Positions 28,191 to 61,706 of a stretch of DNA of 64,000 nucleotides are shown piece by piece. The translations under genes and the position numbers were made by a program. A model generated the notes under the pieces. That model had not been told where the DNA came from and did not search any database. It saw only the letters and a list, made by a program, of their open reading frames with translations. Origin of the DNA: Naganishia liquefaciens (Eukaryota; Basidiomycota; Tremellomycetes; Filobasidiales; Filobasidiaceae); NCBI GenBank assembly GCA_013423385.1, contig BLZA01000040.1, positions 1 through 64,000 on the forward strand. Reading direction: 5' to 3'. How positions within the stretch are numbered: the first letter of the stretch is position 1; each line of letters begins with the position of its first letter.

Positions 28191-28496
28191 GCCATGAGTA
28201 GCTTTTGACGTCGCCTCGGTTTAGCAGGAATTCATCGGTTGCTGTAACTTATACATGTCCACTCTTTGTATAATAATATCTCGTGTGTCTGCCAGGTCAG
28301 CTTTTGACTGGGGTAGGTATCCGAAGACGTGCTCGAGCCCTGGCCGACTGCCAAAGCGAAGAGGCTATGCCGGTCATTAGATGCTCGTTGAGTAGATTGA
28401 TAGTCCATGCATAAATGGTGTACAACGGCATGTTCGGGTCTGCGATTTCATAGATGCCTCGTTGTGATTCGCAAATGCAATGAGCTGATTGCCGAC
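28191..28496. other. Tail-to-tail intergenic, YPT7 / ISA1
   Basis: 306 bp between convergent stop codons. Nothing beyond presumed 3' UTRs was seen. Confidence 0.45.
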
Positions 28497-29421
28497 TCAG
28501 ATGTTGACTGGTAAAGTCGACATCGTCAGCTTCGCATGCAGTGAGGTCGGGAGGAATACACATACAAGATTCTCCACAACCACAGGCGTCCTTGACATTC
28601 GGATTGTTAAAAACGAATTTGGCACTGACATGACCGGGTGTCAATCAGCGAGGGGGAAGGTCGAAACGGCCTTGAAGACTCACCTCAGTCTATCCTCCTT
28701 CCAGTCCATTTCACTGCCAATGATTGAGAAAAGCGCCTTGCTGTCGATAAGCACGCGCACGCCATCCTGCTCTACGACTTCATCGAATTTGCCGCCTGGC
28801 GGTGTTACATATTCAAGATGGTACGACATGCCCGCGCATCCCTTATTCTTGACTGATATCCTGATCAATTTCGGATCTGACGGATCTGTCATAAGATCTT
28901 TGAGACGTTCAACGGCCAAAGGCGTCTACTCGAGAAGCGAGAGATAAGCCGCCGTGTGGGACCAGTCATGCGATGAGAAGATCACTCACCAAGGAGATAG
29001 CGGCCTTCTTCGCTTTGAGACCGATTGAGCGCCTTCTTGGTGGAGCGGCTCTTGTCGACGCCGAAGCGCTCGATGCCGGAACATCATGGCCAATGATATC
29101 ACCACTCAAGCCATCTACGGCTTTCGCTTTCCCCTTGGCGTTGTTGTTCGATGATGGCAAGACCACTGGTACCTCGTCCGCAACCGTCCTCGACGGCTGC
29201 GAAGTCGTCTGCGTTGACAGCTGTCGCATACGAGGATATCGTTGAGCGATGCGCAGTGGCGAAGCTGTTATTGGTTCGACTGATAGATGTCCAGCGTAGT
29301 ATATTGGCGGGGTATGCAGCTGACGGATAGCGCAGAGTGATGAGCTGCTCCGAGCGGCAGTCATGTAGACTGGGAGTAACGACGGTACTGCTCGCATGGA
29401 CGAAGGCGTGATGAAAGACAT
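28497..29421 (-). CDS. ISA1: Mitochondrial A-type iron-sulfur assembly protein ISA1
   Basis: ATG at 29421 opens a long Ser/Ala/Arg-rich presequence (MSFITPSSMRAVPSLLPVYM), fitting mitochondrial import. The ISCA domain follows: AVERLKDLMTDPSDPKLIRI, VKNKGCAGMSYHLEYV (first Cys) and VEQDGVRVLIDSKALFSIIG-SEMDWKEDRL. Then FVFNNPNVKDACGCGES, where a last intron restores the end CGCGESFNI (second and third Cys). The three cysteines are the iron or cluster ligands of the family. ISA1 acts late in the mitochondrial ISC pathway with ISA2 and IBA57 to make [4Fe-4S] clusters for aconitase, lipoate synthase and others. The N-terminal region before the domain is about 140 residues, long for the family. 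Confidence 0.94.
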
Positions 29422-30037: not shown

Positions 30038-33000
30038 TCAAATTTCGCCAGTCGGAAAGCATCCCACTTCCAAACCGATATCGAAAGAATGATTGGGCCC
30101 GTCATCTTGCCCGTCCTGTGCCTCACTCGCGGCATTCGTGAAGACATCAAAGATGGCGTCCAGTTCGTTATCAGATTTTTCGTTGTGATATTCCTGGTTT
30201 TTGCAAGCTAGCCCATCGAGAGGACAACTACTGTAATTGGCGTTGTTCGCGAAAAAGTCATTTGGCGACTTCACCGTCTCCACGATGGGTTCAGGACGAA
30301 GAGCGGCCTCGAGATGTTCGATATGCGACTGCTGGTCGCCCTTTGGCTGGTCTTCGACAGACACCGCAAGCGCTAAAGCCTGTTGCAACGCGTTAGGGCT
30401 GGGTGGATGCAAATGAAACGCCTCGGAAGGCGGTTCTTCCCAGGGCTCGTCGCCGCCTTCGAGAATGTGCCGAGCCATCTGTCCGGAACGAGCATCCTCC
30501 TCGAACAGCTTCTGTAATGCTGGATCCAATTGGAAATCAGGAAACGCGCCTGGATTCTCTTTTTGTCGTCGGTGCTTGTCAAGCTGTTGCTGAATGTACT
30601 CGACTGTCTGCTGCAGAGTATCCGCGAATAGATCCTGTTCCTTCAGAGTTGAGTCATCATTCTCTGCTCCTGGCCAGGATTCGAGCAAAGGGTCCACCTC
30701 CTCCCTAAAGGTCACCTGCTTCTTGTTGTTCCGTCTTGTCGATGCCTTCTTTCCATATGGTATTGCGTTCGGTGACACAATGGAATTAATAATCGGGTCT
30801 CCGTTGTGATCCAACTGAATTTCGCCACCAGGACCAAACTGGAATTCGAAGGGACCCGCCGGAAGTGACATCTGTGGCGAATTGTCGGAATGCGTTTTCT
30901 TCTTGTGCGATTTTGCTTTCTTCCTTTCTCGTTTCTCGCGTTCACCGAAGTCGGATTCGGATTCAGAATCGTCCGCTAGACCATCAAAGTCACCCTCTGC
31001 GAACCTATCAATTTGTCGATGTTTACGCTTCTTCGAAGACTTTGACTTTTTTGGGTATGCTGCTGCGTTGACTTTGTTGAGTCTCAGCATTGATGAATAG
31101 GTACCCCACATATGTATCATTCGTGGCGGCTTCATCAGCCCGTGATAAACTTCTTGCGGGATCGGCGCTGACTGCTTGTCTTCGGTCTTCCGGATGATGC
31201 GGGCCATGTGTATGATCGTACGGGGTACGGGTGGCGCTGGATACGCACCCATGGCTTCAAGAAATTTCTGTACATTCTTGTACTTTCTGAGGATCCGATG
31301 CCCTTCTTCTGGACCTCCGTCCATGACTTCGTCCAAACGTAATTTCTTGGATACGTCCGCCTCCGTGAGGCAGTCGTAACAATTACAGTACCCTTGGCAG
31401 ACGGGGCATATGAAAAGTCGAGACTCGACATCGAACTGGAAGTCATATCTGACATCGAGAATGAAAAAGATCAGCGATCTGTAGCATTGTCCTCTACATT
31501 CCGACATACCGGACGTCAACGCAGTTCTCGCAGAATCGTAGACTACATTCCACCTCGGTGTTACGGCAAGACATTTTAGGTTTCTTGCTTGCAACGCGAC
31601 ATTGATGACAGGTATCCTGCTCAGCATGCTGCGACAAAAATAAGGAGGCGTCGAGACAATCTTCAGGAACGTGTAAGGATCAAGCTTACCTCATCATCGT
31701 CATTGGTTAAAAATCTGTCTCCCGCGATGACCACCTCCTCCTCTTCACTTTCATGCCCACTTTCAACTTGTTGTTCAGTCTCCTCCGCGCTCTCAAATCT
31801 AGTATTCGCAGAGCTCTCAATAGCTTCTATAACGATTTGTCGGGCGGCAATCGCCGCTCTGCGTCGAGACTTGTTTGGCAAGGGCGGCAAATCGCAGAAG
31901 ACAAAGGCCCTCTTGGAAATCGGGTGATTTCGAGGGTAAGGTGGGATTTCGACGTAGGCCAGACGCTGTCGTTCTCCTGCTTTGCAAGGCTCGTCCGTGA
32001 CACCATCAGAACCATAGTCGACTGAATTGGAGTTTCCTGATTTTGGCCGTTGCAAATGTTCCACGGATGACTCTGGTTGAAATGGTGGACGTTCGATCAA
32101 ACGACTTTTTCGTGTCGGTCTTCCCTGCGAGATTTAGCATGCATCAGCTTTGCGTTTGGGTCGAGGAAATTTACTTACCGCCCGAGAAGACACGTCCTGC
32201 GAGGTCTCTGTCAACGCTGACTGAGGTGCAGGCGAGCCAAGGATATTACTTGACCTGAACTTTCTATTTTCATTGGCATTGATAGGCTCGCAATCTGCCC
32301 AGCCATTTAGATGCCTGGGTCAGTCTCCGAAATTCAGAGTATCGGAGGTTCTACTCACTGCGCATATATCCATCCTGAGCTTCACCGCCATCCATATAGA
32401 CTTCTGATTCACTCTCGTCCTCTGATCCATGTTGACGATGCGATATTCCGTTGCGAGAAGTATCCACCTCCTTTTCCTTTCCCTTTCCAAGTGTCTGAAA
32501 GTGCCGGACAAAAGGCTTGGCAAAGCGGTCGCGATTCTGCATATCGCTCGCCCTCGCAGGATAGTTCCAAATATCGCCGTTACGCCCTACTGTCAGGGTT
32601 CGAGTGCTTGGAAGATCGCTGAATTGCTTTCCATCGATGATTTCTCCTTCTTCGATACCGAAAATGCTATGAGGATTGAATGTTGGTGGTAAAGCTCCGT
32701 CGCGAGTGATGTGTGCATCAGATGAGGAAGGTTGCATGAAAGGTCTTCTGAAATTGTCTTGGGCTGGCAACGTAGAAAACGTGCTCGTCCCGCTCAAGCT
32801 TTGTTCTGATATCTGCTTCATGGCACTTGGCAATGGATGCACCTTTGTCGGAGAGATCTGTTCGAACGAAGTCCGCCCAAGGTCGTTGTGTGGCGGGTTT
32901 GCGTAGCTCGACGTCGAGGTAAATCCACTCCGATAGGAGTTACTTGGTTTTGCTAATGGCGGGTCCTTCACGTCTGGCAGCATCCAGCTGGTCAGCGGGA

Positions 33001-54690: not shown

Positions 54691-58401
<3,711 letters not shown>

Positions 58402-58720
58402 GGTGGGGATGAGCGGCGATGTGGATGTGGTCTGCCCTCTTGATCTGTCCCTCCCGCTCTCGACTCTTCTCTTCCCCCTCCTCCGGCTTTCATTCGCGAC
58501 GTTTGGCCCGGCGGGGGACTGGCGGCCAAGGCCGAGCATTACGTAATTCACACGTCGAGGGTAGCCATGGTACAGCCGGAACGCGCGCTCATTCAGATGC
58601 ACATTCCACTCACTATTCTTGACATTATCACTACAACACAATACAACTGGCATCTCTCCCTCTCACTCTCCTACATCCCTCATCCCACATCCCACATCCC
58701 TCATCTCATATCCCTGCAGC
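58402..58720. other. PEX1 promoter with CATCCC microsatellite
   Basis: 319 bp between PEX1 and the cysteine-rich gene. From about 58673 to 58713 the plus strand repeats CATCCC/CATCTC-type hexamers (five or six imperfect copies), immediately after the stop of the cysteine-rich gene. No other element seen. Confidence 0.5.
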
Positions 58721-59343
58721 TTATGCTCGTGCAGGCTCCACGCCAAATGACGCATCCGACGGCTTCAGGCATGAGCCCTGGCAGACCTTGCACTTGGTCG
58801 GGTCACTGTTCATTCGGAGAGGGAATCAATCAGTCTTTGTTCTCTGGCTACTTGGGTGGGAGGACACGAGATTCTAGAGCGGTGAATGGAGACTAGGCGA
58901 GACCTCGGACCGAAGGATCACTACGCCCTACGGCGCCACTGCACTCCACCACATGCCGTCGATGCGAATGCATTCGTGAAAGCCAGACTCCTGATTCCTC
59001 GTATGCCCTCCTCAAATCCCAATCACGCACAACCTTCTCTCCCCTCACCCCCAAAACCAGAGTCTTCCAGCCAACAACAACAGAAGCAAAAAGCATAAAT
59101 ACTCACCCTGCGCAATCCTTTGCACATCCATTCCCACTCTTGCAAACCTCACAACTGCCCGGCGCCGACGTACATCCCGGAATGCCCTGGACGGCACAAG
59201 CGCCCGAGTTGGCGGCCGGGTTACAGAATTCGCACGAGGAAGGGTTGCCGGTGCATGCGGGGGCGGTGGTGGGGGTCTGTACAGAGAGGGGGAATGATGA
59301 GCGAGACGTCTGATCGTGAGCAGGAGGAGAGACGTACAGCCAT
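58721..59343 (-). CDS. Small cysteine-rich protein, metallothionein-like, with three CX6CX2C repeats
   Basis: Three exons, 59338-59343 (just ATG GCT), 59107-59276 and 58721-58805, with introns of 61 and 301 nt, encode 86 residues. Twelve are Cys. Three repeats follow one pattern: ACTGNPSSCEFC (Cys 10, 17, 20), GCTSAPGSCEVC (37, 44, 47) and DCAGDPTKCKVC (57, 64, 67); other Cys lie at 29, 53, 71. There are no aromatic residues except Phe19 and Phe79 and no His, which fits a metal-thiolate protein. There is no signal peptide. It lies between PEX1 and an arrestin gene. The long second intron could hide another exon, but joining the exons in phase gives an unbroken repeat array. Metallothioneins sequester copper or zinc in fungal cytosol; this function is inferred from composition. 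It could also be a redox or structural Cys protein. Confidence 0.75.
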
Positions 59344-59805
59344 TGTAGCTATTGTATAATCCAGTCGATTGTAGGTTGTGGAAACTCTCCTCGACGATAC
59401 GCCCGAGAGAAAAGGTCGAGGCTATATAACCGTTTCCCGAGCGTCGTGTCTGGTCGCAACATTCATCGGAGAAGGCCTGGTGATGACGCGGCAGACAAAT
59501 GCGACGCCTGTGATTGGCTGGCGACTGAGTTGTATGGGCAGGGATATGTGGTGCTGCTTGCCTGCTCAGTAGTTGACTATCATGGCCGCCACTCAGCCTG
59601 TGCAAGACTGGCTGTTGTGTAGGAGCCTCTGTTCCACATTCAGCACCGATCACACCTCTCCGCCGGCAATTCTCGAGGGTCTATTCGCAGTCAGTTTCTC
59701 GGGCAATATATACAGCGTGAACCCGTCAAAAGCGCTTGCTGGCTCTTACAATCTACCAATGGCCCTATCATCCAACGGGATGTCATTTTCGCCAGGCGCT
59801 ACTCG
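59344..59805 (-). promoter_or_regulatory. Promoter of the cysteine-rich gene
   Basis: 462 bp upstream of the ATG at 59343. A TATATA box lies at 59423-59428, about 80 bp before the start, and a CCAAT box in minus orientation at 59513-59517 (read ATTGG on plus). A TGACGCG word near 59484 and several TGCTG/TGCTC-like words near 59551-59568 recall stress or copper-regulated sites, though none matches a known motif closely enough to name. The far end overlaps the 3' UTR of the arrestin gene. Confidence 0.5.
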
Positions 59806-61706
59806 TCAAACGCCCGCATACGCCGGTCCCGTCGTCACAGCCCGACTCTTCTGCGCCGTCGCCACCCCCGCCACTCCGCCCTCGCCTCTATCCCAGGCAC
59901 GCGCGGGGGCGCCAGCCGTTACCGATTCGAGCGGCAGCGTCGGAACGGGAAAGTCCTCGGTCTTGAAACAGCACGCGCACATTGGTACGGAAGTTGCGTC
60001 TGTGACTGATGGGTCTTCTGAATCTAACGAGCGGAGACAGCGCAAGGTGAGGGTTACAGTCGAATTACATTGAGTCTTCCACGTACATGACGGAAGCTTT
60101 ACTCTTTGCTCGATGCAGCAACACTGCTCGTGCCGCATGAGTGACCGAATTGTAACACCACACGACTCGACTTGTTACTCACAGAAGCTATCACCACAGG
60201 AACACTGATCACCAGCATTCTGACCTCGCCTTGCTGCTTCGTATCGGCCATCGCCTCGCCTTGCCTCGTCTCACCCTGCACCGAGAAGAAAATTTTGATG
60301 GCGATCTCATGCTCTACACGCAGCGGAGTTGATGTTCTGCGAGCCATCAACAAGGAGTCAGCGAGCTGAAAACAATATAGGTTATATACTCACCCTGGCA
60401 AACTCGTCGGGCGCAGCTTCGTCTCATCGGGCAATCGCAGCTTGTCCTGTTGCCACACAAACATCAATTCTTCGTCCATTGATGCATCTGCACTCTTTCC
60501 CAGCGTAGACCACAGCGCCGGAGGATGCGGTCCTCCTTTGACGGGAACCTTGCCGTCGGTGATGACGGGTAACACTTCGACCGGACACCGAACCTGCGCT
60601 GGGCCTTCCTCCAACTCATTGTATCCATACAAGTTGAATTGAAACTTTTCTGGTGGAATCGAAATGAATGTCTGGTGGACGTGAATGTGAACGGCATGGA
60701 CGCTCAGGCCGAGCGATGATTGACTGATTTCCAGCCGAGGTATCAGGTATCCTCCAACTGCAAACTGTCAAAACCGCGTCAACCGCGAATTCGGGTCCGT
60801 TCAAGCGCTCGGCTTACCGTATCACTCAGCATGAATAGACGCCATTCACCGAGGCCTGGAATGAATCCCTTTTTTTGCATACGCAACGGATGGAGACCTC
60901 CTGTCGGGTCGGGATTCGCAATGACGGCGACTGTTTTCGTCCAGGATTGGTGCACCTGATCCAAAGGTGACTTGTGGCCATTTGTTTGTGATGAAGCCGT
61001 ACACGTGCATAACTCTGTATGCGGCGCACTGTCAGAGGCGGGACCCGGATATAGATTGATCCAACTCACGATCAGGAAAGACGACCTTGCCTCCGCCTTG
61101 CCAAAGATCCAAGATCATGGGTCGACCTAGAACCATTGGCGGACTCTCTGGCTCATCCTTCATCTGCACTGGAGGATTTGAACGGATATAATCCAACGTT
61201 TCCGTGCTGATCAGACCGGCCGGCGTCGTTGCGTATCCAAAGTCCACATCGAGCCGTACTTGTGCGAGCACGATGCCATACTTTGAATGTTCATAGGTGG
61301 GGAGACTGGCAGGAACCAAGATATCAAATTCGATCCTTCTGTTGATCAAGTGCTTCGTTGTTGATGGCTGAACGATTGAAGTGTACTGTATTTCCTCCAG
61401 GTCAAAGGACTTGTACCGCTCAAAGATGATGGTCTCCCGAGTCTTTGAATCCGTGTCCGCCTTGGTCCTGCTCAAGACGACCAAGCCGACACGGATAGAG
61501 TGAAGATTTAGATATGGCTGAGCGATAATATTGACGTGTCCCGAGAGCAAAGTCTCATCTTGTATGTGCAATGCATCGTCGTCGAGGGAGGGTCCGGACG
61601 TCGCTCGAGGGCGGACGATGACGATATCATTTTGAACGTGGATTTGCGCGGTTAAGCGAGGGGGCGGGAGGCTCGAAGGCTTGAGGATGCGCTTCAGCTT
61701 GTCCAT
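59806..61706 (-). CDS. Arrestin-like protein (alpha-arrestin family)
   Basis: ATG at 61706 (MDKLKRILKPSSLPPPRLTA). The arrestin N-domain reads DETLLSGHVNIIAQPYLNLH, IRVGLVVLSRTKADTD and RRIEFDILVPASLPTYEHSK, YGIVLAQVRLDVDFGYA. A central exon has HQSWTKTVAVIANPDPTGGL. The C-domain reads VHVHVHQTFISIPPEKFQFN, LYGYNELEEGPAQVRCPVEV, LRVEHEIAIKIFFSVQGET and VRMLVISVPVVIAS, then CCCIEQRVKLPSYSEDPS. The end has a Cys patch (MCACCFKTEDF) and an Ala/Gly/Arg tail, stop at 59806. Alpha-arrestins act as ubiquitin-ligase adaptors for nutrient transporters. I see no PPxY motif, so ligase binding must use another route, or the protein has lost it. Six exons. Confidence 0.82.

Follow-up and report, generated by a model that had tools for sequence, protein, structure and literature searches.

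A spliced gene of Naganishia liquefaciens encoding a small cysteine-rich, putatively metallothionein-like protein with a three-fold repeat

Gene structure and genomic context

The window, i.e. the whole stretch of 64,000 nucleotides of Naganishia liquefaciens DNA that was analysed, carries on its minus strand a cysteine-rich gene with three exons, encoding 86 residues of which 12 (14%) are cysteine. The parts of the gene are the following:

Exon 1, 59338..59343, minus strand: encodes Met-Ala, start codon at 59343-59341
Intron 1, 59277..59337, minus strand: 61 nt, GTACGT...CAG
Exon 2, 59107..59276, minus strand: encodes modules 1 and 2 in full and begins module 3 with its first Cys; matched in the whole-genome protein search
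Intron 2, 58806..59106, minus strand: 301 nt, GTGAGT...CAG; CTGAT at 58833 resembles a branch site
Exon 3, 58721..58805, minus strand: completes module 3 and adds the C-terminal tail and the TAA; matched in the whole-genome protein search

Splicing from the ATG at 59343 to the TAA ending at 58721 gives the product MATPTTAPACTGNPSSCEFCNPAANSGACAVQGIPGCTSAPGSCEVCKSGNGCAKDCAGDPTKCKVCQGSCLKPSDASFGVEPARA. The CTGAT at 58833 is located 27 nt ahead of the last base of intron 2. Left unspliced, the ATG frame runs for 40 codons before it meets a stop, and within exon 2 no start codon yields at least 40 aa. This agrees with the remark in the preliminary description of this DNA that none of the exons forms a long frame by itself.

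A deposited twin was found in the protein search, namely the hypothetical protein NliqN6_5570 of N. liquefaciens, identical in 86/86 residues and with the same start; its contig measures 714,613 bases. Strain N6 is a heavy-metal-tolerant deep-sea yeast from the Japan Trench, and the annotation of its genome drew on RNA-seq of cells grown in YPAD with and without 10 mM CuSO4, in two replicates each (PMC7679087). The predicted splice model of the preliminary description (58721-59343 from TAA to ATG, 86 aa, 14% Cys) had been reached independently and proved correct in its coordinates, length and composition, in agreement with the RNA-seq-aided annotation; the protein had, however, already been deposited. 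As far as the sequence can tell, the gene can be taken as real with high confidence.

The presence of a known RNA in intron 2 was also considered. No Rfam match was found within the intron (58806-59106, minus strand) at E 1, and the best match nearby (E 0.14, 21.2 bits vs a gathering score of 50) lies at 58578-58798, outside the intron, so this candidate was discarded.

Downstream of the cysteine-rich gene, and on the same strand, PEX1 N-terminal sequence was identified:

PEX1 N-terminal domain (PF09262), 57211-58124, minus strand: best match at 57211-57960, weaker piece at 57903-58124

The minus-strand neighbour upstream resembled an arrestin-type protein by eye, and the three frames tested were unmatched in Pfam. 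No metal-metabolism genes were found among the neighbours. Elsewhere in the window, exons at 28297-28919 (minus strand) encode GCAGMSYHLEY...ACGCGESC, which we take to read like an Isa1/IscA-type Fe-S carrier. The CGCGESC at 28584, part of a CGCGESCMC stretch, was consequently rejected as a metallothionein motif. A frame of 529 codons at 30038-31627 (minus strand), with no Pfam match at E 0.001, contains the zinc-finger-like stretch CPVCQGYCNCYDC.

Three-fold repeat

The repeat unit of NliqN6_5570 is C-x3-P-x2-C-x-[FV]-C, which is present three times and is followed in each case by a fourth Cys. The pattern C-x6-C-x2-C begins at residues 10, 37 and 57:

Module 1, 59223..59255, minus strand: CTGNPSSCEFC, residues 10-20
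Module 2, 59142..59174, minus strand: CTSAPGSCEVC, residues 37-47
Module 3, 58780..59114, minus strand: CAGDPTKCKVC, residues 57-67, interrupted by intron 2

The successive Cys gaps are 6,2,8,7,6,2,5,3,6,2,3. When 12 Cys were placed at random, three consecutive (6,2) gap pairs were obtained in 1e-5 of 200,000 trials, while some gap pair appeared three times in 0.8%. Permutation of the observed gaps gave 1.2% for any pair occurring three times and 0.6% for (6,2). The pattern was chosen post hoc, and the any-pair value of 0.8% and the permuted-gap value of 1.2% are moderate.

The repeat is real, and the likeness of its units extends past the cysteines. A Pro at position 5 is common to all three 11-residue units, and their summed non-Cys similarity was equalled by 2/20,000 Cys-fixed shuffles, so the strict three-fold CX6CX2C repeat that had been described earlier was corroborated. 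In addition, a single splice pair across intron 2 (GTGAGT/CAG, 1 of 796 donor/acceptor pairs) recreates the third C-x6-C-x2-C. Two modules in tandem within one open frame occur once in the window, and such a pair was seen in one of 100 first-order Markov versions; single modules amount to 8, compared with a mean of 2.4 in the Markov versions. The Cys density alone is not unusual, as six-frame noise elsewhere in the window reaches 9 Cys in 40 codons.

Composition and search for relatives

NliqN6_5570 has a mass of 8.3 kDa and contains no CXC, His, Tyr or Trp. Hydrophobic residues are few (2 Phe, 1 Leu, 1 Ile and 4 Val of 86). It is thus a small protein with high Cys content and few aromatic residues, as is expected for a metallothionein in the broad sense. 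The spacing had been described as different from the CXC and CXXC clusters of classical metallothioneins. The absence of CXC was confirmed, but the contrast in CXXC was wrong, since every module has one.

No match to NliqN6_5570 was obtained in Pfam, NCBIfam or PDB sequences at E 10, the metallothionein families PF12749 and PF12809 (Metallothio_Euk and Metallothi_Euk2) included. Neither of these two families was found in the N6 genome, in a scan whose controls were weak (1/14 and 0/14 genomes). The absent Pfam match carries little weight because Pfam also misses, at E 0.01, the ordinary 7-Cys proteins P0002 and P0003 of Cryptococcus (C. amylolentus and C. decagattii, respectively), both of which read as 7-Cys metallothioneins.

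When NliqN6_5570 alone was used as query in the protein search (E up to 1), the sole candidate was itself. An artificial 7-Cys query (E up to 0.001) yielded 1 match among 1311 candidates, P0002. With an alignment as query (E up to 10), 3 matches were found among 3236 candidates, namely NliqN6_5570, P0002 and P0003. The rows of this alignment were P0001, P0002 and two artificial ones, and the high scores of P0001 and P0002 are meaningless there; P0003 scored E 0.14. The search requires shared exact 5-residue words and is roughly estimated to miss relatives that share less than about 50% identity. Prokaryote contigs gave 307 pattern-matching stretches and viral contigs 23, with 0 confirmed relatives in both sets. 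In its own genome, DNA and protein searches returned only the NliqN6_5570 gene among the best candidates scored, and the artificial query and P0002 were both unmatched there in searches for a 7-Cys gene, which were run without a positive control. No paper on the gene was found among the matches listed in the literature; PMC12942351, found for metallothionein and Naganishia, does not mention N. liquefaciens.

NliqN6_5570 is therefore an orphan at this search sensitivity, in a database that may not include other Naganishia proteomes. As no homologue was found, it gains no support from conservation. An unlisted family had been suggested for this protein, and the lack of a Pfam or NCBIfam model and of any homologue found is in line with it; the protein itself, on the other hand, is already listed as NliqN6_5570.

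Comparison with metallothioneins and zinc clusters

According to the available part of PMC4755600, the copper-binding TmMT of Tremella mesenterica is composed of CXCX3CSCPPGXCXCAXCP units with 7 Cys, and its authors regard the modules of the C. neoformans metallothioneins (CnMT1 and CnMT2) as homologous 7-Cys modules. NliqN6_5570 resembles these tremellomycete copper metallothioneins in belonging to the same fungal class, in its tandem Cys-rich modules, in its richness in small residues and, for part of the unit, in a Pro placed between Cys seven positions apart. In contrast, the known proteins have 7 Cys per unit with CXC in the text cited, whereas NliqN6_5570 has 4 Cys per unit and no CXC. 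Its Cys gaps include no one-residue gap, and the TmMT unit, as given in that source, is absent from it.

The alignment of NliqN6_5570 with P0002 did not rise above shuffled sequences. Cys-fixed shuffles scored as high in 725/2000 cases (gap cost 11/1) and 1551/2000 cases (gap cost 7/1), full shuffles in 333/2000 and 1021/2000 for the same two gap costs, and the BLASTP E value was 0.29. Descent from 7-Cys metallothioneins was rejected as main reading on these grounds. A short core of module 2 (CTSAPGSC vs CTCAPGQC in P0002), chosen by eye, was equalled in 233/20,000 Cys-fixed shuffles, and the sum over the three modules in 572/20,000, which may be a weak lead toward the 7-Cys metallothioneins.

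The Fungi-I metallothioneins of Neurospora and Agaricus show the heptacysteine motif C-x4-C-x-C-x2,3-C-x-C-x4-C-x-C and internally duplicated Cys motifs in the available part of PMC12508003. NliqN6_5570 shares their low mass and high Cys content as described there; with 86 aa it is longer than the Agaricus crocodilinus pair AcMT1 and AcMT2, which have 49 and 32 aa (PMC12508003). The heptacysteine motif with its CXC pairs, in the form given in the accessible text of PMC12508003 and PMC4755600, does not occur in its Cys gaps.

In the literature on strings such as CX6CX2C, some of the titles name the Zn(II)2Cys6 family or zinc clusters. The Zn(II)2Cys6 binuclear cluster of fungal transcription factors has the order C-x2-C-x6-C twice. 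The same two Cys gaps, 6 and 2, are found in NliqN6_5570, but in reversed order and three times, as C-x6-C-x2-C. With this order and without a Pfam family at E 10, the protein was not assigned to the Zn(II)2Cys6 class. Taken together, the comparisons suggest that NliqN6_5570 may work like a metallothionein, while membership of any named metallothionein family is not supported.

Promoter and regulation

Two promoter boxes were found upstream of the ATG:

TATATA box, 59423..59428, minus strand: 85 nt upstream of the ATG
CCAAT box, 59513..59517, minus strand: 174 nt upstream of the ATG

Both had been taken earlier as a hint to an inducible gene. The boxes are present, but neither of them means inducibility, and in the accessible part of the TmMT study a TATA box is described, yet its authors inferred a rather constitutive expression (PMC4755600). 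A response of expression to metal is common among metallothioneins without being obligatory. The published Cuf1 element of the C. neoformans SOD genes is (A/T)AA(T/G)G(G/C)C(T/G)C(A/G), as given in the available text of PMC7961099. No complete copy of this element was found in the 657 nt upstream of NliqN6_5570, and its six-base core was observed 3 times there, below the 5.1 expected. An argument for copper from promoter elements was discarded on this basis. Besides the Cuf1 element, consensus strings of Ace1-like, MRE, STRE and other promoter motifs were scanned. One Ace1-like site was detected upstream (0.57 expected) and one in the 317 nt downstream (0.21 expected).

A Cuf1-type regulator is likely to be encoded in the N6 genome, because one copper-fist match with KGRP was detected (G000:C9:127711-127824, minus strand, locus L004); the domain at this locus probably belongs to such a regulator.

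Proposed function and alternative explanations

NliqN6_5570 is proposed to be a small, probably cytosolic, metallothionein-like protein that arose by module triplication and whose 12 thiolates would bind soft metals. We estimate the probability of this reading at about 0.55. The protein would have been generated when a module with four Cys, C-x3-P-x2-C-x-[FV]-C-x(3-8)-C, was triplicated, and binding of soft metal ions by its thiolates would serve buffering or detoxification. In each module, the four Cys would match the needs of a single tetrahedral Zn(II) or Cd(II) ion; equally possible, all 12 Cys could wrap Cu(I) in thiolate clusters. The gene may be induced by the copper-fist factor of the N6 genome. 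A cytosolic metal-thiolate buffer is suggested because the chain offers 12 thiolates, is free of His and nearly free of aromatic residues, and has no recognisable signal peptide. Metal binding by the thiolates can be proposed with moderate confidence and copper as the specific metal with low confidence; together with the metal, we infer the cytosolic location and the induction by the copper-fist factor.

The metal-buffer reading is favoured by the identical deposited protein, the use of RNA-seq with and without copper in the N6 annotation, the heavy-metal tolerance of the strain, the 12 Cys in the absence of Tyr, Trp and His, the repeat, the splice that restores module 3, the TATA box, the copper-fist match in the genome and the fact that the enumeration of upstream starts gave no exon that could add a signal peptide. 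Against it stand the absence of CXC, a hallmark of fungal metallothioneins according to the available parts of PMC12508003 and PMC4755600, and the fact that no homologue, no complete Cuf1 element upstream and no sign of metal metabolism around the gene were found.

There are exactly four Cys in each module and a single CXXC, which encloses a hydrophobic residue, and a Pro is conserved; such an arrangement would also suit a small folded unit. The protein could then use zinc structurally, in zinc-stabilised partner-binding folds, or be a thiol-redox protein acting through CXXC, and would not be a metal buffer. The scarcity of hydrophobic residues and the lack of any Pfam, NCBIfam or PDB sequence match make this unlikely. 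Small Cys-rich fungal proteins are often secreted, and the even Cys count would be compatible with a secreted or wall-bound disulfide-rich protein whose signal peptide is encoded in a missed exon. However, the N-terminus MATPTTAPAC has no hydrophobic stretch, and no alternative upstream start adding a signal peptide was found when starts were enumerated as far as position 60400, with GTA or GTG as donor, intron lengths of 45-400 nt and an in-frame join to acceptor 59277. The Met-Ala exon itself was the sole candidate, with 0 other ATG-plus-donor exons joining this acceptor in frame. The position of the TATA box, 85 nt ahead of the ATG, and the identical start of the deposited model also argue against a missed exon. 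Judged by the N-terminus and the enumerated starts, the earlier statement that a secretion signal is missing could be upheld, and secretion appears quite unlikely.

The protein could also be a diverged tremellomycete 7-Cys metallothionein which has lost the middle Cys of the CXC pairs. The common fungal class, the tandem architecture and the shuffle values for the module 2 core and the module sum point in this direction, but that core was picked after being seen, the whole-protein alignment with P0002 behaved like shuffled sequence, and no CXC is left; such an origin is improbable. An artefact of gene prediction or a non-functional transcript would be consistent with the orphan status, the two-residue exon 1, the 301-nt second intron and the chance Cys-rich stretches that occur in the window. 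The same model was nevertheless obtained in the RNA-seq-aided annotation (PMC7679087), splice signals are present at both introns, only the one pair recreates module 3, and the likeness among the repeats is matched in just 2/20,000 shuffles, which leaves an artefact highly improbable.

The preferred reading, a metallothionein-like metal buffer, allows a bolder version that is conceivable but doubtful: a lineage-specific metallothionein in which each copy of the triplicated CXC-free 4-Cys module would hold one metal site, like beads on a string, and which would aid the metal resistance of this deep-sea yeast, either alongside the 7-Cys copper-thioneins of its class or as their substitute. If true, CXC-free 4-Cys blocks would be a second way to build a modular metal buffer, compared with the tandem 7-Cys blocks described in the available literature. 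NliqN6_5570 would then be a further candidate for metal tolerance in N6 besides superoxide dismutase, whose activity in this strain was reported as Cu2+-induced in a paper cited in the accessible text of PMC7679087. Both the splicing and the expression of NliqN6_5570 can be checked in the public RNA-seq reads DRR237068-71, obtained with and without 10 mM CuSO4 (PMC7679087).
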